A model generated the notes under the pieces. That model saw nothing but the letters and a program-made list of their open reading frames with translations, was not told where the DNA came from and made no database searches. From Gemmatimonas sp. (GTDB lineage: Bacteria > Gemmatimonadota > Gemmatimonadetes > Gemmatimonadales > Gemmatimonadaceae), in assembly GCA_025361705.1 (NCBI GenBank), contig JANYJW010000048.1:1-50477 (forward strand): DNA of 50,477 nt, read 5' to 3'. Numbering within the stretch: the stretch's first letter is position 1; each line of letters begins with the position of its first letter. Below, piece by piece: positions 19,128 to 48,937 of this stretch. Position numbers and translations under genes: made by a program.

Positions 19128-19155
19128 CGGTAGACGGCTGACGGTAGACGAGACA
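19128..19155. repeat. Heptad repeat (family A), locus 1
   Basis: Immediately after the lepA stop are four 7-bp units: CGGTAGA, CGGCTGA, CGGTAGA and the degenerate CGAGACA. The complement (TCTACCG) is the same family as the repeat before the HD gene at 37.28 kb. Confidence 0.65.
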
Positions 19156-26696: not shown

Positions 26697-27943
26697 GGCG
26701 GCAGATGGCAGATGCCTTCCGACGCTGCCGCCGATGGCCGGCACGCCTGGCGCGCGCCGTGGCCGTCTCTGCCATCTGCCTTCTGCCATCTGCCATCTCC
26801 GCCCAGCAGCCCCAACCCGCCACACAGACCCCCGCCGAGCGCGCCAAGGTGCAGCGCGACGAACTGGACCGGGTGCGCGCAGAGCGTGAACGACTCGAGG
26901 CGCGCATGCGGGAATTGCAGGGGACGGCGCACGACCTCAGCGAGGAACGCACCAACATCGAGCGGCAGGCCGACGCCACGTCGCGCCTCGTGCGCTCGCT
27001 CGACAGCCAGATTGGCGCGCTCGCTGGTGAGGTCGACAACGCCACCTCGGGCCTCGTGATTGCGCAGGACGAACTGGTGATCAAGCGCTCCATGCTGCAG
27101 CGGCGCGTGCGTGAGATCTACAAGCGCGGCGCGCTCTACTCGCTCGAGGCGCTGCTGTCGGCGCAGTCCTTCGGCGCGCTCGTCGCGCGCTACAAGTACC
27201 TGCACCTCGTGGCCCAGCGCGACCGCGCGCTCGTGCGGCGCGTGGAGCTGCTCAACGACCAGATTTCCGGCACGCGCACCCAGCTGGTGCGCCTGCGCGG
27301 CGAGATGGAGCTGAGCCGGGAGCAGAAGTCCGAGGAGGAGCGTCGCCTGCGCGAGCTGGAGAGTGCGCGCGGCAAGTCGCTGGCCAAGGTGCAGCAGTCG
27401 GCCCGCCAGACTGAGGTGCGCCTGCAGCAGATTCAGCGCGACGAAAAGCGGTTGGGCGACCTGATCGCCGTCTTCGAGGCCGAGCGTCGGCGCGCCGTGG
27501 CCGCGCGCCCCAACGCGCCGGCGGCCCTGAGCACGCTCCGCACCAGCGACTTTGGTCGGCTTGACTGGCCCGTGGAAGGGCAGATCCTCTATCGTTTTGG
27601 CCGCGTGGTGAACGCCAATAACACCACCACCCGCTGGAACGGCATCGGCATCGGCGCGGCGGCCGGCACCGCGGTCAAGTCGGTGGCTGCCGGCAGCGTG
27701 GTGCTGGCCGAAGCATTCGGCACATATGGCCAGACGGTGATCGTCAGCCACGGCGACGGCGATTTTTCGGTGTATGGTTCATTGGCACGGCTGGACGTGC
27801 GCAAGGGACAGACGATCCAGAAGGGACAGGTCGTGGGCGCCGTCGGGCGCACGGATCCCGACCTCGATGCTCATCTGCACTTTGAAATGCGACCCAAGGG
27901 ACGCGCCGTGGACCCGCTCGAATGGCTGCGCAACCGGAAATGA
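26693..27943 (+). CDS. envC: EnvC-like murein hydrolase activator (coiled coil and degenerate LytM/M23)
   Basis: A 416-residue exported protein. A signal peptide (1-37, SAISA then QQ) is followed by a long coiled coil (about 45-270) and a LytM domain (about 290-412). Where active M23 peptidases have HxGIDI, this has WNGIGIGA, so the first zinc ligands are missing, as in Escherichia coli EnvC (an amidase activator, not an enzyme). A later HLHFEM, usually degenerate in EnvC, is retained. Its position directly after ftsEX (ATGA overlap) supports activation of septal amidases through FtsX. Unusually, the signal-peptide core is encoded by tandem 7-bp repeats. Confidence 0.9.
   Translation: MRRQMADAFRRCRRWPARLARAVAVSAICLLPSAISAQQPQPATQTPAERAKVQRDELDRVRAERERLEARMRELQGTAHDLSEERTNIERQADATSRLVRSLDSQIGALAGEVDNATSGLVIAQDELVIKRSMLQRRVREIYKRGALYSLEALLSAQSFGALVARYKYLHLVAQRDRALVRRVELLNDQISGTRTQLVRLRGEMELSREQKSEEERRLRELESARGKSLAKVQQSARQTEVRLQQIQRDEKRLGDLIAVFEAERRRAVAARPNAPAALSTLRTSDFGRLDWPVEGQILYRFGRVVNANNTTTRWNGIGIGAAAGTAVKSVAAGSVVLAEAFGTYGQTVIVSHGDGDFSVYGSLARLDVRKGQTIQKGQVVGAVGRTDPDLDAHLHFEMRPKGRAVDPLEWLRNRK
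26700..26797. repeat. Heptad repeat (family A), locus 2, within the envC signal-peptide region
   Basis: The left arm GGCAGATGGCAGAT (26700-26713) is inverted relative to four in-phase units TGCCATC, TGCCTTC, TGCCATC and TGCCATC (26770-26797). The units encode the hydrophobic core and end of the EnvC signal peptide; the left arm encodes its first residues. Confidence 0.8.
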
Positions 27944-28226: not shown

Positions 28227-29432
28227 ATGTCCCCCACAAAGCGCGCTGGCTCGACCAAGGTCGCCGCCACAAAGACAGCCACCCGCAAGAATCCCCCGAC
28301 CAAGAAGCTGGTCTCAAAACCAAAGCCGACACCCAAGAAGCCGACACCCAAGAAGCCGGCACCCAAGAAGCCGACACCCAAGAAGCCGGCACCCAGGAAG
28401 CCGGCACCCAGGAAGCCGGCACCCAAGAAGCCGACACCCAAGAAACAGGTGCTGAAGCCGACCCCAGCACCCAAGCCCGCCGCTGCGCCCCGTCCCAAGG
28501 CCGAGCGCGCGGTCGCCGTGCCGAAAACCGGCGTCATCCCGCCGGCCGCCGGCGCCTCACCCTACGACATCCCCTACGCCGGGGCGCCGTTGGGTGCGCA
28601 CGTCAGCACCTCTGGCGGCATCGCGGCCGCGCCGCCGCGCGCCGTGGACATCGGCGCCACCGCCATGCAGGTCTTCACCAAGCAGGCGAGTCAGTGGAAG
28701 GAACGGATGCCGACTGCCGCCGAGGTGCAGGCCTTCCGCGCGGCGCTCGCCGCCACCGGGGTGGGCTTCGTCAACGCGCACGACAGCTACCTCATCAACC
28801 TGGCATCGCCCAACCCCGCACTCCGCGCCAAGTCCATTGGTTCTTTTGAATTCGAGATGCGCCGCAGCAATGCGCTGGGCCTCGACGCCGTCGTGTCGCA
28901 CCCCGGCAACTTCATGGACGACCGGGCCAGCGGCATCGCACGCAACGCCGACGCCATCATCGAGGTGCTCGAGCGCGTGGCCGGCCCCACGCGCTTGCTC
29001 ATGGAACTCACCGCCGGTCAGGGCACCGTCATCGGCTCGAGCTTCGAGGAAATGGCCGACCTGCTCGCGCGGCTTCCGGCCGCGCTGCAGGCCCGCGTGG
29101 GCGTCTGCCTCGACACGGCGCACGTCTTCGCCGCAGGCTACGACCTGGCCAACGATTTCGATGGCGTGATGACGCGCTTCGGCGACGTGCTGGGCTTCCA
29201 TCGCCTCGGCCTGCTGCACCTCAACGACTCCAAGGCGCCGCTGGCGTCGCGCAAGGACCGCCACGAACTCATCGGACTGGGCTCCATTGGCGAGTGGGCG
29301 TTCCGGCGGATCATGACGGACCAACGGTTCGCCGACATTCCCAAGGTGCTCGAGACACCCAAGGGCGACGACATGATCACCAACGACCGCCGGATGCTGC
29401 GCAAGCTGCGGGGGTTCGCCGCCGGGCGGTGA
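28227..29432 (+). CDS. nfo: Endonuclease IV with Lys/Pro-rich N-terminal tail
   Basis: A 401-residue apurinic/apyrimidinic endonuclease for base-excision repair. All nine trinuclear-zinc ligand positions of the family are visible: HDSYLINLA, VSHPGNF, MELTAG, CLDTAH (Asp and His), LHLNDSK, DRHELIG (Asp and His) and LETPKG. The catalytic domain (about 116-401) has the usual ~280-residue size. The first 115 residues are extra: a basic, low-complexity tail with eight PKKPT/PKKPA-type pentapeptides (36-73) that resembles histone H1 tails and probably binds DNA non-specifically. The start is supported by GTGAGG five bases before the ATG. Confidence 0.95.
   Translation: MSPTKRAGSTKVAATKTATRKNPPTKKLVSKPKPTPKKPTPKKPAPKKPTPKKPAPRKPAPRKPAPKKPTPKKQVLKPTPAPKPAAAPRPKAERAVAVPKTGVIPPAAGASPYDIPYAGAPLGAHVSTSGGIAAAPPRAVDIGATAMQVFTKQASQWKERMPTAAEVQAFRAALAATGVGFVNAHDSYLINLASPNPALRAKSIGSFEFEMRRSNALGLDAVVSHPGNFMDDRASGIARNADAIIEVLERVAGPTRLLMELTAGQGTVIGSSFEEMADLLARLPAALQARVGVCLDTAHVFAAGYDLANDFDGVMTRFGDVLGFHRLGLLHLNDSKAPLASRKDRHELIGLGSIGEWAFRRIMTDQRFADIPKVLETPKGDDMITNDRRMLRKLRGFAAGR
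28332..28445 (+). repeat. 15-bp coding tandem repeat (PKKPT/PKKPA/PRKPA)
   Basis: About eight near-identical 15-bp units of the form CCCAAGAAGCCGACA encode the basic tail of the nfo product. Units differ by single bases (Lys/Arg, Thr/Ala), and such repeats can change copy number without a frameshift. Confidence 0.9.
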
Positions 29433-37279: not shown

Positions 37280-37300
37280 CCGTCTACCGTCTACCGTCAC
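37280..37300. repeat. Heptad repeat (family A), locus 3
   Basis: Three units CCGTCTA, CCGTCTA and CCGTCAC fill most of the 29-base spacer between the pckA stop and the HD-protein ATG, where a ribosome-binding site would be expected. Confidence 0.7.
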
Positions 37301-38524: not shown

Positions 38525-38543
38525 CACGCCGCCAGCAGCGCCT

Positions 38544-38592
38544 GCTGTCTGCTATGTGCCGTCTGCCACCTGCCGCCTGCCATCTGCCATCT
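38544..38592. repeat. Heptad repeat (family A), locus 4
   Basis: Seven in-phase units: GCTGTCT, GCTATGT, GCCGTCT, GCCACCT, GCCGCCT, GCCATCT and GCCATCT. On the minus strand they encode the last residues and the stop codon of the FkbM methyltransferase. Confidence 0.85.
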
Positions 38593-39448
38593 CGCGGCGC
38601 GGCGTCAACACCAGCCACGACTGCGGCTGGGTGCGATGCTCCTGCATCAGCTGCTCCAGCGTCTCCGGCATCCGCGATCGCCACGGCTCGGCCACGCCGG
38701 GCGGGAGGTGCGCCAGCACCCGGTCTTCGGTGGCAATTCGCCGGACGTCGTGCGTCGGCAGGAATCGCAGGACCATGACCGGCTCCGACGGCGTGGCCGC
38801 CGGCCCATGGCATTCCACGAGAATCGTCGCGCGCGCCAGCGCAGGGACCGCGACCGGATCGAGCAGCACGTGCTCACCGCCATCGATGTCGCACACCACC
38901 AGCACACCGAGCCCGTCGCCGATCACCGCATTGAGGTCCGGCGTGTCGCAGAACCCACCCACGTGCACGCGGTCGGCCACGCCATTGGCCGCCACCGCAT
39001 CGCGCAGCATACCAAGCGCCTCGCCGTCACCCTCGAATGCCAGCACGCGCGTGGTCGGCATCAGCCGGGCGAGACCCACCGCGTAGTAGCCGTAGCGTGC
39101 GCCCACGTTGATCACCGTGGGAAATGCGCGGGCGCTGAGCTCGTGCACCACGCCAAACAGCTCGTGCTCGTAGGTGCCCAGCAGTTCGGGCGCGGCCGGG
39201 TATCCAGTCAGCTGCATCCCTGCAAACGGCCCGCTGAGCACGCGATCACGGCCGAGCGCACGCAGGCGGCCGAACAGGAAGCGGCGGCGGGGGCGGAGCA
39301 CCCAGCGCAGTGCACCACGCAGCGGCGCCGGCAGGTCGATGAAGGCCTGCAGCCACGGGCCGCTGTGCTCGACGGAGACGCGGCCCGTCACGGTCTGCCA
39401 CAACAGCCGCAGCGCTCCAGGCCGCGGATCGTCGCCGCGCGCCGTCAC
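38552..39448 (-). CDS. FkbM-like SAM-dependent methyltransferase
   Basis: A 298-residue protein. The SAM-binding motif I is INVGARYGYYAVGLAR (about 113-128), followed by VLAFEGDGEAL and VVCDIDGGEH, consistent with a Rossmann-fold methyltransferase of the FkbM type, often acting on glycans or lipids. The substrate is unknown. The GTG start overlaps the upstream small gene stop (GTGA). The last 13 residues (EMADGRRQVADGT) are encoded by tandem 7-bp repeats, which suggests that repeat insertion replaced the original C-terminus. Confidence 0.8.
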   Translation of the reverse strand: MTARGDDPRPGALRLLWQTVTGRVSVEHSGPWLQAFIDLPAPLRGALRWVLRPRRRFLFGRLRALGRDRVLSGPFAGMQLTGYPAAPELLGTYEHELFGVVHELSARAFPTVINVGARYGYYAVGLARLMPTTRVLAFEGDGEALGMLRDAVAANGVADRVHVGGFCDTPDLNAVIGDGLGVLVVCDIDGGEHVLLDPVAVPALARATILVECHGPAATPSEPVMVLRFLPTHDVRRIATEDRVLAHLPPGVAEPWRSRMPETLEQLMQEHRTQPQSWLVLTPRREMADGRRQVADGT

Positions 39449-42030: not shown

Positions 42031-44865
42031 GTGCCCGATTTCATCCGCATCCGCAACGCCCGTCAGCACAACCTGAAGGGGATCAACGTCGATCTGCCAC
42101 GACGCGCGATCACGGTGATCACGGGGCCGTCGGGATCGGGCAAGTCGTCGCTGGCGTTCGATACGATCTACGCCGAGGGGCAGCGCCGCTACGTCGAGTC
42201 GCTCTCCGCGTATGCGCGGCAATTCCTCGAGCGGATGCAGAAGCCGCTGGTCGACTCCATCGAGGGACTCTCGCCGGCGGTGGCCATCGAGCAGCGGAAC
42301 CCGGTGCGCACGTCGCGCTCCACGGTGGGCACCGCCACGGAAATCTACGATTATCTGCGTCTCCTTTGGGCGCGGATCGGGCGCACCCTCTGCCCCACCT
42401 GCGGCCGCGAACTGCGCCCCGACACGCCACAGGGCGCCGCCGATCAGGTGATGGCCCTGCCGACCACCACGCGGCTTCAGGTCACGTTCCCACTGCGCCT
42501 CTCGGGCCTCGTGTCGCACACGGTGGCCGTGGAGAACCTGCGCGCCGAGGGCTTCGTACGCGTCATCGCCGACGGCGTCGCCTACCACGTGGACGACCTT
42601 GGCGGCAGGAAGCCCGACCTGACCAAATGCGCGGAGGTGCTCGTCGTCACCGACCGACTCGCGGTCGACGCCACCCTGCGCAGCCGCCTCACCGACGCCA
42701 TCGAGACCGCCTTCCGCGAAGGCGACGGTGACTGCGTGGTGGTGGTGGACTCGCCGCCGCAGGCGGCGCATCTGCCATCTGACGTCTCCCATCTGGCATC
42801 ACGCGCTCAGCGACTGCGTTTTACCACGCGCTTCGAGTGCCCCGAGCATCACACCCGCGCCCCACACCCCACCCCCCAGCTCTTTTCGTTCAACAATCCG
42901 CGCGGCGCGTGCCCCACCTGCAACGGCTTCGGCGCCACGCTGGAATACGATCTCGCCCTCATCGTGCCGCACCCGGAGCGCACCCTGCGTGAGGGCGCCA
43001 TCGACCCGTGGACCAAGCCGCGCTACGACAACAAGCGCCGCGCCCTCGCCGAGGCGTGCAAGCGCGAGGGCATCGCGCTCGACCGCCCGTGGCACGACCT
43101 CGCCGACAGCCAGCGCGAGTTCCTGCTGCGGGGAAAGGCCAAGGGCTTTGTCGGGATCATCCGCCACCTCGACTCGCTCGAGGAAAAGAAGTACAAGCAG
43201 TACATCCGGGTCTTCCTGCGGCAGTACCAGTCGGCGATGACCTGCACCGCGTGCCACGGTGCGCGGCTGCAGCCCGAGGCGCTCAACGTGCGCATTGGCG
43301 GCCGGACCATCGCCGACGTCACGGCGATGCCGGTGGAACTGCTCAACGCCTGGCTCGACACGCTGGTGCTGACCCCGGCCGAACGGCAGGTGGCCGCCCA
43401 CATCTGGCGCGAAGCGCGCGACCGCGTGCGATTCCTGTGCGAGGTGGGGCTGACGTACCTCACGCTGGACCGCGCCACGCGCACGCTCTCGGGCGGCGAG
43501 GCGCAGCGCATCGGGCTGGCCAACTCGCTGGGGTCGCGGCTGGTCGACGCGCTCTACGTGCTGGACGAGCCGAGCATCGGCCTGCACCCGCGCGACATGG
43601 ACCGGCTGCTGCGCCTGCTGGCACGCTTGCGCGACGGAGGCAACACCGTGCTCGTGGTGGAGCACGACCTCGAGGCCGTGCGCGCGGCCGACTGGATGCT
43701 CGAACTCGGCCCCGAGAGCGGGGAGCGCGGCGGACACGTGGTGTACAACGGCCCCGTGTCCGAGGCGGGCGCCAACTCGCTCACCGGGCAGTACCTCACG
43801 AATGCGCGCACCATTCCGGTGCCAGCCAAGCGCCGCAAGCCGTCGCGGTGGATCACGCTGTCTGGAGCCCGCGCGCACAACCTCCGCGGGGTCGACCTGG
43901 CGATCCCGCTCGGTGCGCTCACCGCCGTCACCGGGGTGTCCGGCTCGGGCAAGAGCACGCTGGTGCACGACGTCTTCTACCACGCACTCGAGGCGGCGCT
44001 CACCGGCGATCACAGCGCGCGGCAACATCTGGGCGAGACCGTTGGCGAGTTCACATCACTCGTGGGCAGCGAGTCGGTGGATGCCGTGGTGCTCATTGAC
44101 CAGGAGCCCATCGGCCGCAGCCCACGCTCCAATCCCGTGACGTACGTCAAGGCGTACGACGAGATCCGCCGCATCTTTGCCGCGCTCCCCGAGGCGAGGG
44201 CGCGCCGCTACACGCCGGGCACATTCTCGTTCAACGTGAAGGGCGGACGCTGCGACAAGTGCGAAGGCGCTGGCGCCATCGCCGTGGAAATGGTCTTTCT
44301 CGCCGATGTCTTTGTGCCGTGCGACGAGTGCGACGGCAAGCGATTCAAGCCCGACGTGCTGGGCGTGAAGTACTTCGGGCGTTCCGTGGTTGATGTGCTC
44401 GAAATGACCATCGACGAGGCCATACGGTTCTTCCCATACGAGGAGAAGCTCGGGCAGGCCCTGTGGCACATCCAGCAGGTGGGACTCGGCTACCTGCGGC
44501 TCGGCCAAGCCGCCACCACGCTGTCGGGCGGCGAGGCGCAGCGCCTCAAGATTGCGCGCGAACTCGCGTTCTCGTCCAAGAAGTCCGGGCGCAAGCTCTA
44601 CATCCTCGACGAACCCACCACCGGGCTCCATCTCGAGGACATCCGCAAGCTGGCCCACGTGCTCGAGCAGCTGGTGGACGCCGGGCACACCGTGGTGCTC
44701 ATCGAGCACAACCTCGACGTCATCAAGCTCGCTGACTGGGTGGTGGACCTCGGCCCCGAAGGGGGCGATGGCGGCGGCAAGGTGGTGGCCACGGGCACCC
44801 CTGAGCAGGTGGCGAACGTGGCCGGTTCCCACACCGGCCGCTGGCTCAGGACGGTCCTCACCTGA
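42031..44865 (+). CDS. uvrA: Excinuclease ABC subunit A
   Basis: A 944-residue damage-recognition ATPase of nucleotide excision repair. Two ABC modules are complete: Walker A GPSGSGKSS (32-40) and GVSGSGKST, two LSGGEAQR signatures and two Walker B segments (VLDEPSIGLHP, ILDEPTTGLHL). Zinc-binding Cys pairs are seen in CPTCG, CPTCNG, CTACHG, CDKCEG and CDECDG. The GTG start fits the conserved IRIRNARQHNLKGI opening. Around residues 246-258, between the UvrB-binding/signature region and FECPEH, an in-frame stretch (AHLPSDVSHLASR) is encoded by five 7-bp repeats and is probably an insertion. Mfd, its partner in transcription-coupled repair, is at 11-14 kb. Confidence 0.97.
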   Translation: MPDFIRIRNARQHNLKGINVDLPRRAITVITGPSGSGKSSLAFDTIYAEGQRRYVESLSAYARQFLERMQKPLVDSIEGLSPAVAIEQRNPVRTSRSTVGTATEIYDYLRLLWARIGRTLCPTCGRELRPDTPQGAADQVMALPTTTRLQVTFPLRLSGLVSHTVAVENLRAEGFVRVIADGVAYHVDDLGGRKPDLTKCAEVLVVTDRLAVDATLRSRLTDAIETAFREGDGDCVVVVDSPPQAAHLPSDVSHLASRAQRLRFTTRFECPEHHTRAPHPTPQLFSFNNPRGACPTCNGFGATLEYDLALIVPHPERTLREGAIDPWTKPRYDNKRRALAEACKREGIALDRPWHDLADSQREFLLRGKAKGFVGIIRHLDSLEEKKYKQYIRVFLRQYQSAMTCTACHGARLQPEALNVRIGGRTIADVTAMPVELLNAWLDTLVLTPAERQVAAHIWREARDRVRFLCEVGLTYLTLDRATRTLSGGEAQRIGLANSLGSRLVDALYVLDEPSIGLHPRDMDRLLRLLARLRDGGNTVLVVEHDLEAVRAADWMLELGPESGERGGHVVYNGPVSEAGANSLTGQYLTNARTIPVPAKRRKPSRWITLSGARAHNLRGVDLAIPLGALTAVTGVSGSGKSTLVHDVFYHALEAALTGDHSARQHLGETVGEFTSLVGSESVDAVVLIDQEPIGRSPRSNPVTYVKAYDEIRRIFAALPEARARRYTPGTFSFNVKGGRCDKCEGAGAIAVEMVFLADVFVPCDECDGKRFKPDVLGVKYFGRSVVDVLEMTIDEAIRFFPYEEKLGQALWHIQQVGLGYLRLGQAATTLSGGEAQRLKIARELAFSSKKSGRKLYILDEPTTGLHLEDIRKLAHVLEQLVDAGHTVVLIEHNLDVIKLADWVVDLGPEGGDGGGKVVATGTPEQVANVAGSHTGRWLRTVLT
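42769..42803. repeat. Heptad repeat (family A), locus 5, inside uvrA
   Basis: Five in-phase units CATCTGC, CATCTGA, CGTCTCC, CATCTGG and CATCACG lie within the uvrA reading frame. The frame is intact on both sides. Confidence 0.75.
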
Positions 44866-47217: not shown

Positions 47218-47760
47218 ATGCGCGCAGCCCGTACCGCCATCCACGCCGTCGTCGTTGGTCTCTCGCTCGTCGCCTGCGGCGCTCCGGCCAGCAACGGCGC
47301 CTCCGCCGATGCGGCGCCAGCAGTCGGTCAGGCAAACGTGCAGGACAACGAGTCGGTGAAGGATGTCGTGAAGATCGCCGTCGGGTCGAAGGACCACACC
47401 ACGCTGGTCGCCGCGCTGCAGGCGGCCGACCTCGTGAACTCGCTGGCGAACGCGGGGCCATTCACGGTGTTTGCCCCCACCAACGCCGCCTTCGACAAGC
47501 TGCCCAAGGGCACGGTGGACGACCTGCTGAAGCCGGCCAACAAGGAGAAGCTGCGCCTGGTGCTGCAGCACCATGTCACGACATCCGCCCTCGACGTCGA
47601 CCAGTTCAGCGACGGCCAGGTCGTCGCGATGGCTGATGGCGCGAGCGCCACGATCCACAAGAAGGGCGCCGACACCTTCATCAACGAGGCGAAGATCATC
47701 GCGTCGGTGCGCGGCTCGAACGGGATGGTGCACGTGATTGATGGGGTGTTGGTGCCTTGA
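47218..47760 (+). CDS. Fasciclin (FAS1) domain lipoprotein
   Basis: A 180-residue exported protein. The signal peptide ends in lipobox LVAC (C20), so it should be lipid-anchored. After a Gly/Ala/Asn linker, a single FAS1 domain spans about 45-180, with FTVFAPTNAAFDKLP and the final NGMVHVIDGVLVP hallmark. FAS1 domains mediate adhesion. ATG 47218 has GAGGTGA six bases upstream; a GTG at 47209 overlaps that Shine-Dalgarno and is unlikely. Confidence 0.94.
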   Translation: MRAARTAIHAVVVGLSLVACGAPASNGASADAAPAVGQANVQDNESVKDVVKIAVGSKDHTTLVAALQAADLVNSLANAGPFTVFAPTNAAFDKLPKGTVDDLLKPANKEKLRLVLQHHVTTSALDVDQFSDGQVVAMADGASATIHKKGADTFINEAKIIASVRGSNGMVHVIDGVLVP

Positions 47761-47768
47761 GATAGGGG

Positions 47769-47868
47769 ATGGCGGATGGCGGACGGCAGACGGCAGTCAT
47801 CCGCCATCCGCCATCCGCCATCTACCATCTACCATCTACCATCTGCCATCCGCCATCCGCCATCTGTA
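47769..47868. repeat. Heptad repeat (family A), locus 6, with inverted arm
   Basis: Nine perfect in-phase units at 47799-47861 (three ATCCGCC, three ATCTACC, one ATCTGCC, two ATCCGCC) are preceded by an inverted arm of GGCGGAT, GGCGGAC and GGCAGAC units (about 47769-47796). The whole can fold into a long hairpin. This is the longest array in the window. Confidence 0.92.
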
Positions 47869-47872
47869 GCTT
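47843..47872 (+). promoter_or_regulatory. Candidate promoter of GT4 gene, built from repeat
   Basis: CTGCCA, part of a heptad unit, lies 18 bases before TAGCTT, which is six bases upstream of the ATG. The layout parallels the FHA promoter (TTGCCA, 17, TAGCTT, nine bases, ATG). Confidence 0.4.
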
Positions 47873-47878
47873 CCCCCC

Positions 47879-48937
47879 ATGCGCATCGTCCACCTGCTCA
47901 ACCACGTCGACCGCACAGGCAACGGCATTGTGCATGTGGCCGTCGACCTGGCCTGCATGCAGGCACGCGAGGGGCACGACGTGTGGGTGGTCTCGAAGGG
48001 CGGCGCGTATGAGCCGCTGCTCGCACGGCACGGCGTGCGCCACGTGCGCATGGACCAAGGGCGGCGTCCGCTCACGCTGCTGCGCGCCCTCGCAGCGCTG
48101 CGCACGCTCCTCCGCGACGCCCGGCCCGACATTGTCCATGCGCACATGGTCACCGGCTACGTTCTGGCGCGCGTCCTGCGCCCGTTCGCGCGCTGGCGGC
48201 TCGTCACCAGCGTGCACAACGAGTGGCAGCGCAGCTCCACCCTGATGGGGGGCGCCGACCGCGTGATCGTCATGAGCGACAATGCCGTGGCGCGGCTTGC
48301 GGCGCGCGGCATGCCGCGCGAGCGCCTTCGGCCGGTGCGCAACGGCACGGTGGGAAGCCCGCGCCTGACGGAGGATCCGCACGACGCCGTCGCCCTGCAC
48401 CAGCCGGCCATCGTCACCGTGGCTGGCCTCTACGAACGCAAAGGCATCGCCGATCTCATTGCGGCCTTCGACGCGCTCGCGCCATCACATCCGGATGCGC
48501 ACCTCTACCTCGTCGGCGAAGGTCCCGACCGCGTGCACTTCGAAGCCCAGGCGCGCGCCTCGGCGGCGCACGCACGCATTCACTTTGAAGGATTCCGGGC
48601 CGCACCGCGCGCATACCTGCGTGAGGCGGCGGTCTTTGTGCTCGCGTCGCACGCCGAGCCGGGCGGCCTGGTGCTGCCCGAAGCGCGCGATTGTGGGTGC
48701 GCCATCGTCTCCACGAACGTGGACGGCTCGCCCGAGCTGCTCGACGACGGACGCGCCGGCGTGCTGGTGCCGCCGTGCGATGTCCCCGCACTGACGGCCG
48801 CCATCTCCCGACTGCTTGACGACGCCCCCGCGCGTGAGCGCCTGCGCACCGCAGCGCGGGCCAACCTCGACTGGCTGCGCATCGACCGCCAGCACGCCGA
48901 AACGCTCGCCGTGTACGCCGAGGCGCGCGCCGTCTAG
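47879..48937 (+). CDS. Glycosyltransferase family 4-type (GT-B fold)
   Basis: A 352-residue retaining glycosyltransferase for envelope or exopolysaccharide sugars. The N-terminal half starts MRIVHLLNHVDRTGNGIVHVAVDLA, with HAHMVTGYVLARVL and HNEW. The C-terminal GT1 domain has TVAGLYERKGIADLIAAF, LYLVGEGPDR and the nucleotide-sugar Glu motif SHAEPGGLVLPEARDCG. The ATG is directly preceded by CCCCCC, without a Shine-Dalgarno. It is convergent with the DsbA-fold gene, four bases apart. Confidence 0.92.
   Translation: MRIVHLLNHVDRTGNGIVHVAVDLACMQAREGHDVWVVSKGGAYEPLLARHGVRHVRMDQGRRPLTLLRALAALRTLLRDARPDIVHAHMVTGYVLARVLRPFARWRLVTSVHNEWQRSSTLMGGADRVIVMSDNAVARLAARGMPRERLRPVRNGTVGSPRLTEDPHDAVALHQPAIVTVAGLYERKGIADLIAAFDALAPSHPDAHLYLVGEGPDRVHFEAQARASAAHARIHFEGFRAAPRAYLREAAVFVLASHAEPGGLVLPEARDCGCAIVSTNVDGSPELLDDGRAGVLVPPCDVPALTAAISRLLDDAPARERLRTAARANLDWLRIDRQHAETLAVYAEARAV

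Follow-up and report, generated by a model that had tools for sequence, protein, structure and literature searches.

A dispersed family of gene-bordering heptamer repeats in Gemmatimonas

REP and BIME elements, which occur with RAYT transposases, are dispersed intergenic inverted repeats, and the STRR of heterocystous cyanobacteria are dispersed short tandem heptamers with units of their own. Reports of gene-bordering heptamers come from several phyla and offer no established cause. In Xanthomonas and Nostoc, the units are GGGAATC and GGGGA(C/T)T, two Xanthomonas genomes hold 186 and 183 heptamer sites (89% and 93% of them intergenic), inverted (convergent) pairs are frequent, and sites shared by species vary in length and sequence (PMC4692102). 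The TAACTGA direct repeats have a scattered distribution among Beggiatoaceae, cyanobacteria, and Bacteroidetes, and some sets overlap gene ends. They are built on one fixed unit, related heptamers being rare as direct repeats, and comprise one inverted repeat versus 169 direct sets, together with 819 singletons (PMC4679880). In another report, STRR denotes a fingerprinting method (PMC5088731). We found no account of such arrays in Gemmatimonadota in the open-access literature searched.

We analyzed a 50,477-nucleotide stretch of Gemmatimonas DNA (hereafter, the window), which is the entire contig C63 of genome G000, a 93% complete MAG of 2,970,821 bases in 71 contigs. The best matches of the HD-domain protein encoded in the window are Gemmatimonadetes/Gemmatimonas MAGs, several of which come from groundwater, followed by Gemmatimonadaceae, and we therefore place the host in this family. 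A sequence-only reading of the window had proposed six sites of a degenerate 7-bp tandem repeat. A period-7 scan with the degenerate unit CCRTCYR recovered all of them, with best scores per site, in order, of 15.5, 22.0, 15.5, 25.0, 17.0, and 54.0, whereas five first-order Markov copies of the window scored no higher than 12.5 (Table 1). The unit given in that reading, ATC(T/C)(G/A)CC, describes a real heptamer repeat but is too narrow because the sites at 19128 and 37280 carry the CCGTCTA variant. Its spans identify the six sites, for which tighter limits were measured, but its maximum of nine units is too low for the largest array, which has nearly 10. Inverted arms, proposed for two sites, were seen at 26699-26798 and 47767-47866.

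Table 1. Heptamer arrays of the window, with scores from the CCRTCYR period-7 scan and their gene setting
Feature	Position	Strand	Score	Setting
Heptamer array, unit CCGTCTA	19128..19150	-	15.5	Begins 1 nt past the lepA stop codon (19126); LepA domains (Pfam)
Short left arm, CCATCTG	26699..26714	-	12.5 (alone not above the shuffled maximum)	Directly after the stop codon (26696) of an ftsX-like gene; FtsX by Pfam
Right arm, CCATCTG/CCTTCTG	26768..26798	+	22	Precedes the M23 peptidase gene or lies at its start
Heptamer array, CCGTCTA	37280..37298	+	15.5	Occupies most of the space from the PEP carboxykinase stop (37274) to the start of the HD-domain gene (37304)
Degenerate array following the HD gene	38542..38592	+	25.0 (best; period-7 scan)	Encodes the stop and roughly the final 13 codons of a convergent - strand gene (38552-39448)
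Heptamer array inside uvrA (42031-44865)	42769..42800	+	17.0 (best)	Length-variable loop; reading frame kept
Left arm, purine-rich on +	47767..47796	-	23.5	Just past the stop codon (47760) of the fasciclin-domain gene
Right arm, nearly 10 units CCATCYG/CCATCTA	47798..47866	+	54	Stops 12 nt before the glycosyltransferase start (47879)

The comparison within the genus covers 11 genomes including G000, with one genome per species. Junctions orthologous to that of the M23 peptidase gene bear heptamers in G003, G001, and G005, and at the array between the PEP carboxykinase and HD-domain genes the congeners show, by eye, variation or absence. The product of the convergent gene next to the HD gene ends 0-4 residues past an LTPR-like motif in seven of nine relatives and later in two. 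In the uvrA loop, we read the heptamers as clear in seven of nine genomes, degenerate in one, and absent in one, and their units differ. The RNA of the paired arrays before the glycosyltransferase gene (47755-47884) has an MFE of -53.1 kcal/mol, corresponding to a z of -4.0 relative to dinucleotide shuffles. Elsewhere in the window (28300-28444), there is a 15-bp tandem repeat of about eight copies, AAGCCGACACCCAAG, apparently within an ORF, whose unit is unrelated to the heptamers.

The six arrays of the window are part of a genome-wide heptamer family with the unit CCDTCYR. A search of all of G000 (2.97 Mb) for the 19-mer CCATCYGCCATCYGCCATC gives 204 overlapping matches, compared with 4 for the reversed pattern; the sequence-only reading had named a lack of genome-wide enrichment as one outcome that would speak against the family, and the enrichment is strong. 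The 21-mer (CCDTCYR)x3 has 268 overlapping matches in G000 and is found throughout the genus (11 of 11 genomes, G000 included). Its occurrence across a sample of the phylum is patchy (43 of 395 genomes, 10 of which belong to the genus, and thus 33 of 385 elsewhere). Many of these 33 genomes have just a few matches, and match numbers like those of the genus are reached by a handful of genomes from two further genera in the family (g31 and g32). Heptamer arrays in low number were also noted in G012, which belongs to the same family (genus g3).

Array calls in G000 (score of at least 13) were made in a 404-kb sample consisting of the window and of up to 20 kb from the start of each of 20 of the 71 contigs, 8 of which were already known to carry arrays. 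The sample gave 26 arrays; of the 19 obtained with six altered control motifs together, 15 coincide at least in part with true arrays, leaving 4 outside them. Array density was 6 to 11 per 100 kb in the sampled stretches of five genomes of the genus. The stretches of G268 (18 kb) contained no array and were dropped from further use. Single units do not share this enrichment, since seven unit 9-mers outside arrays are near the Markov expectation in six genome samples; GCCATCTGC, for example, was observed 10 times outside arrays in the G000 sample, compared with 9.1 expected. In IMG/VR, fifteen stretches (L245-L259) contain a perfect CCATCTG or CCGTCTA 21-mer.

The arrays had been described as lying inside as well as between genes, and both placements were observed: 70 of 77 arrays in five genome samples are outside called genes, and the uvrA array is intragenic. 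Most arrays adjoin gene borders, and many end within a few nucleotides of start codons. Genes were called with a simple codon-usage script, which gives approximate start positions; with the starts of this caller, an SD-like motif precedes none of 30 array-led genes, compared with 467 of 1639 others. In six G003 loci (L163, L164, L169, L171, L177, and L180), arrays of TAGACGG variants often provide, as judged by eye, the TAG stop codon of the bordered gene and sometimes also its last codons.

The arrays are polarized with respect to the genes that they border. Tandem Repeats Finder was applied to the intergenic regions sampled in six genomes, limited to lengths of 30 to 600 nt (1006 regions), and reported arrays in 247 of them, the purine- or pyrimidine-rich ones being led by periods 7, 11, 10, 14, 13, and 22. 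After exclusion of 68 arrays of mixed composition, 100 of the 122 purine-rich arrays were closer to the left gene, and 100 of the 122 pyrimidine-rich arrays were closer to the right gene. Overall, the purine-rich strand points outward from the gene in 200 of 244 arrays of all periods, and it does so at convergent (46/52), divergent (25/29), and co-directional (129/163) junctions. Heptamers alone follow the nearer gene in the same way in 83 of 95 cases, regardless of gene direction, and 17 of 19 arrays in two other genera agree. Array-free junctions have the same polarity in a weaker form (purine fractions of 0.52-0.58 in the left 25 nt and 0.43-0.51 in the right 25 nt). The purine-outward rule is common to unrelated units, suggesting a shared constraint at gene borders.

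Where two arms face each other, the purine-rich arm comes first in 33 of 33 heptamer pairs at the sampled junctions and in 38 of 38 paired junctions of all repeat families. Outside the counted samples, one reversed pair with the pyrimidine-rich arm first was seen by eye in L038, downstream of the HD gene (~1990-2040). The two arms of a pair are alike. Across all families (38 intergenic regions), their summed similarity is 24.5, whereas permutation gives 14.3 on average and 19.4 at most, but the own partner is the best within-genome match in only 17 of the 38 pairs, and some pairs join unlike families. The unit-variant difference between heptamer arms is 0.642, compared with 1.2 when permuted within the genome (1 of 5000 as low; n = 25, the pairs out of 33 in which each arm has at least two full units). 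A mirrored order of unit variants was not found between the arms of 29 pairs (combined z of 1.25). Therefore, the arms match by composition and not as a copied string, and fold-back copying gained no support. The arms are spaced by 1 to 190 nt (38 pairs), and the sequence between them looks unshared by eye among the junctions inspected. An association with terminators was likewise unsupported: when arrays were masked, which shortens the array-containing regions, perfect stems of at least 9 were no commoner in these than in array-free regions (++, 0.09/0.11; --, 0.03/0.10; +-, 0.27/0.39; -+, 0.00/0.05). A terminator-like hairpin between the arms was noted by eye at some junctions.

The mixture of units differs between genomes. 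CCATCTG contributes 55 of the 116 clean units sampled from G000, and CCGTCTA contributes 71 of the 100 sampled from G003. G003 lacks CCATCYG 19-mers but has 209 matches to the reversed pattern, in keeping with units of the CCGTCTA kind. Drift in base composition does not account for the difference, as CCATCTG and CCGTCTA are equal in G+C. Over 152 arrays, the effect of the genome label on unit composition (between minus within) is 0.439, compared with a maximum of 0.124 in 2000 permutations. The effect is 0.254 without G003 (permutation maximum 0.134) and 0.192 without G003 and G010 (1 of 2000 permutations as high), at which point it almost merges with the permuted values. With the comparison limited to G000, G005, and G006, 79 of 2000 permutations are as high as the observed 0.078; these three are not clearly distinct. 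The arrays of G000 have a mutual distance of 1.72 compared with 1.65 to those of G001, so they are no closer among themselves. A unit "dialect" is clear in some species (G003 and G010) and weak in others, including G000.

We compared 139 pairs of orthologous junctions, which are not mutually independent because some junctions recur. Both sides carry heptamers in 13 pairs; a heptamer array faces no array in 7 and another kind of array in 4; and the remaining pairs are other/other (6), other/none (18), and none/none (91). Heptamers are present on 37 of the 278 sides, from which ~2.5 double pairs would be expected under independence, compared with the 13 seen; this excess suggests that part of the dispersed appearance comes from old sites that were rewritten. 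In the 13 double-heptamer pairs, orthologous arrays are separated by a mean distance of 1.57. The corresponding value is 1.38 when unlinked arrays are taken from the same genome and 1.87 when they are taken from the other one. Orthologous arrays are closer than unlinked same-genome arrays in 6 of 13 pairs and closer than unlinked other-genome arrays in 9 of 13; these counts indicate that ancestry is still visible, within pairs that are few and not independent. The sequence-only reading had called for a check of presence and absence at orthologous junctions, and presence, length, and unit all differ between congeners. Identical arrays at identical positions, which it had held to speak against a spreading repeat, were not the rule, since arrays at shared positions are mostly of different sequence. 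Arrays in the same place with another spelling or length in sister genomes suggest that the repeats are rewritten and not simply inherited.

Periods differ as well. Repeat families of 8, 10, 11, 13, and 24/25 bp are also intergenic in the genus. The junction before the glycosyltransferase gene (window 47761-47878) has orthologs in nine congeners, none of which has a heptamer by eye. Four have 11-mers of one kind, one has another 11-mer, one an 8-mer, and one a 10-mer (also by eye); of the other two, one has a mixed array and one is without an array. The left neighbor appears to be different in G006. Tandem Repeats Finder reported an 11-mer in G001 and a 10-mer in G005 at this junction. At three junctions, G003 has 10-mers related to CTCTGTCGTT, whereas G005 has 11-mers. 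An exact 22-base dimer of the 11-mer is absent from the whole of G000 and G003, occurs 39-200 times in six genomes, and occurs 1-6 times in three. Across orthologous junctions, the site often persists while the unit, and even the period, turns over. A period-10 scan with CTCCGTGNCC gave 25 matches in 400 kb of G003, and a second G003 family (L164, L167, and L170) has long imperfect inverted arms with CCGGTCTCCGTGTTGAA- and CTCCGTGGCCCTCCG-like words.

We tentatively favor, at a likelihood somewhat short of even, a dispersed gene-bordering repeat family that is shaped by slippage and by copying between arrays, has no dedicated mobility enzyme, and is partly selected for its strand. Arrays would lengthen and shorten by polymerase slippage. 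Copying between arrays might homogenize those of one genome and re-seed new or decayed sites, and it could proceed by ectopic recombination or by template switching in replication. Selection probably helps to maintain the polarity, since the pyrimidine-rich strand beside a start codon contains neither ATG nor Shine-Dalgarno-like purine runs. Purely local birth, in which each array arises by slippage from a chance seed and the likeness reflects a mutational or structural preference for the motif, is distinctly unlikely. Slippage has been published as an idea for the bacterial excess of heptamers (cited in PMC4692102), and in three of the six genome samples the units are mixed and scarcely differ between genomes. 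However, three observations are not readily accounted for by slippage alone: the recurrence of a single unit skeleton at many unlinked sites across 11 genomes; the sharp unit mix of some genomes, with units of equal G+C differing strongly between them; and the absence of the family of one period, the 11-mer, from two whole genomes (G000 and G003). The seven unit 9-mers near the Markov expectation outside arrays also speak against chance seeds. DNA uptake sequences have dialects in the Neisseriaceae, and uptake words are normally scattered singly. The heptamers have many copies, intergenic inverted pairs, and lineage differences in common with them, and the units could be imagined as recognition words for natural transformation; because the frequency of single units outside arrays is close to that expected in six samples (GCCATCTGC, 10 versus 9.1 in G000), we regard this as exceedingly unlikely.

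A mobile element with an enzyme of its own, whether REP/RAYT-like, templated by a reverse transcriptase, or phage-borne, might insert the arrays, and the inverted arms do look like terminal inverted repeats; one of the two perfect 21-mers is also present in each of the fifteen IMG/VR stretches. We consider such an element very unlikely because, among the 11 genomes of the genus, Y1_Tnp (RAYT-type) has a match in two and none in nine, RVT_1 has no match in 10, and array-rich G000 is among those without either; in addition, the sequence between arms looks unshared by eye and the arm spacing varies from 1 to 190 nt. In G000, Pfam gave no match to Y1_Tnp or to RVT_1, an absence that is not proof in a 93% complete MAG. 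The earlier statement that no transposase is nearby was checked by Pfam on ten window proteins and by whole-genome searches for these two families. Of the sequence-only reading of the heptamers as a whole, the dispersed family comparable to described ones stands, whereas spread by its own means gains no match in the two enzyme families; that the repeat spreads "by itself" is plausible. It is unlikely, if not strongly so, that the arrays are selected functional RNA elements, with a pyrimidine-rich, SD-free leader bound, for example, by ribosomal protein S1 and a purine-rich trailer after the stop codon, whose complementary arms may pair and whose unit differences would follow a co-evolving binding protein. 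The many arrays ending a few nucleotides from start codons, the 0 of 30 led genes with an SD-like motif, the matched arms, and the better folding of RNA 47755-47884 than of its shuffles are consistent with this, as is the similar placement of the TAACTGA heptamers of Beggiatoaceae, for which S1 was proposed (PMC4679880). However, sites come and go among congeners (7 heptamer/none and 18 none/other of 139), the polarity is equal at convergent junctions, which have no leader (46/52), species differ in period at one junction, and arrays are found inside uvrA. Given the gaps left by slippage alone, the lack of an enzyme in the two searched families, and the improbability of uptake words, slippage combined with copying between arrays is the reading that we favor.

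Somewhat doubtful, in our estimation, is a genome-wide concerted evolution in which a trans-acting process would rewrite unlinked arrays to the species dialect, period included, while the sites persist together with their inverted arms and purine-outward orientation. The change of period would then correspond to 11-mers being replaced by 10- or 7-mers, and such concerted rewriting, if true, would be a bacterial counterpart of satellite-DNA turnover. Loss of a repair gene found no support as a cause of the arrays, since absence of full-length MutS1 or SbcD-like matches does not track them. No match to full-length MutS1 was obtained in G000, G005, G008, and G009, and MutS1 is present in the equally array-bearing G001-G004, G006, G007, and G010. 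A MutS1 match over the cut-off occurs in 34 of 41 relatives, and SbcD-like matches occur in all 41, 3 of these being over the model cut-off.

Dispersed gene-bordering heptamers are already known from Xanthomonas, Nostoc, and Beggiatoaceae, and the family described here is a variation of a known type. With eleven sister genomes that have differing unit mixes and periods at comparable junctions, copying, local birth, and selection become testable by comparison. The family differs from STRR in its host (Gemmatimonadaceae) and in its unit (CCDTCYR), and from REP/BIME in that G000 has no Y1_Tnp match and shows no fixed hairpin sequence. Like the arrays of G000, the heptamers of Xanthomonas and Nostoc have a period of 7 and many dispersed, mainly intergenic sites. 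Their G-rich units also resemble those of G000 in the outward purine- or G-rich strand and the convergent pairs (PMC4692102). They differ in that the main units here, GGCAGAT and TAGACGG, hold GG only, without tracts of at least 3 of the G-quadruplex type, and in that the unit mixes of this genus differ by genome, with other periods at sister junctions. The TAACTGA repeats resemble this family in that arrays abut start codons and SD motifs are rare (PMC4679880). Unlike the TAACTGA repeats, this family has units that vary within CCDTCYR, frequently paired arms, and singletons in close to the expected number.
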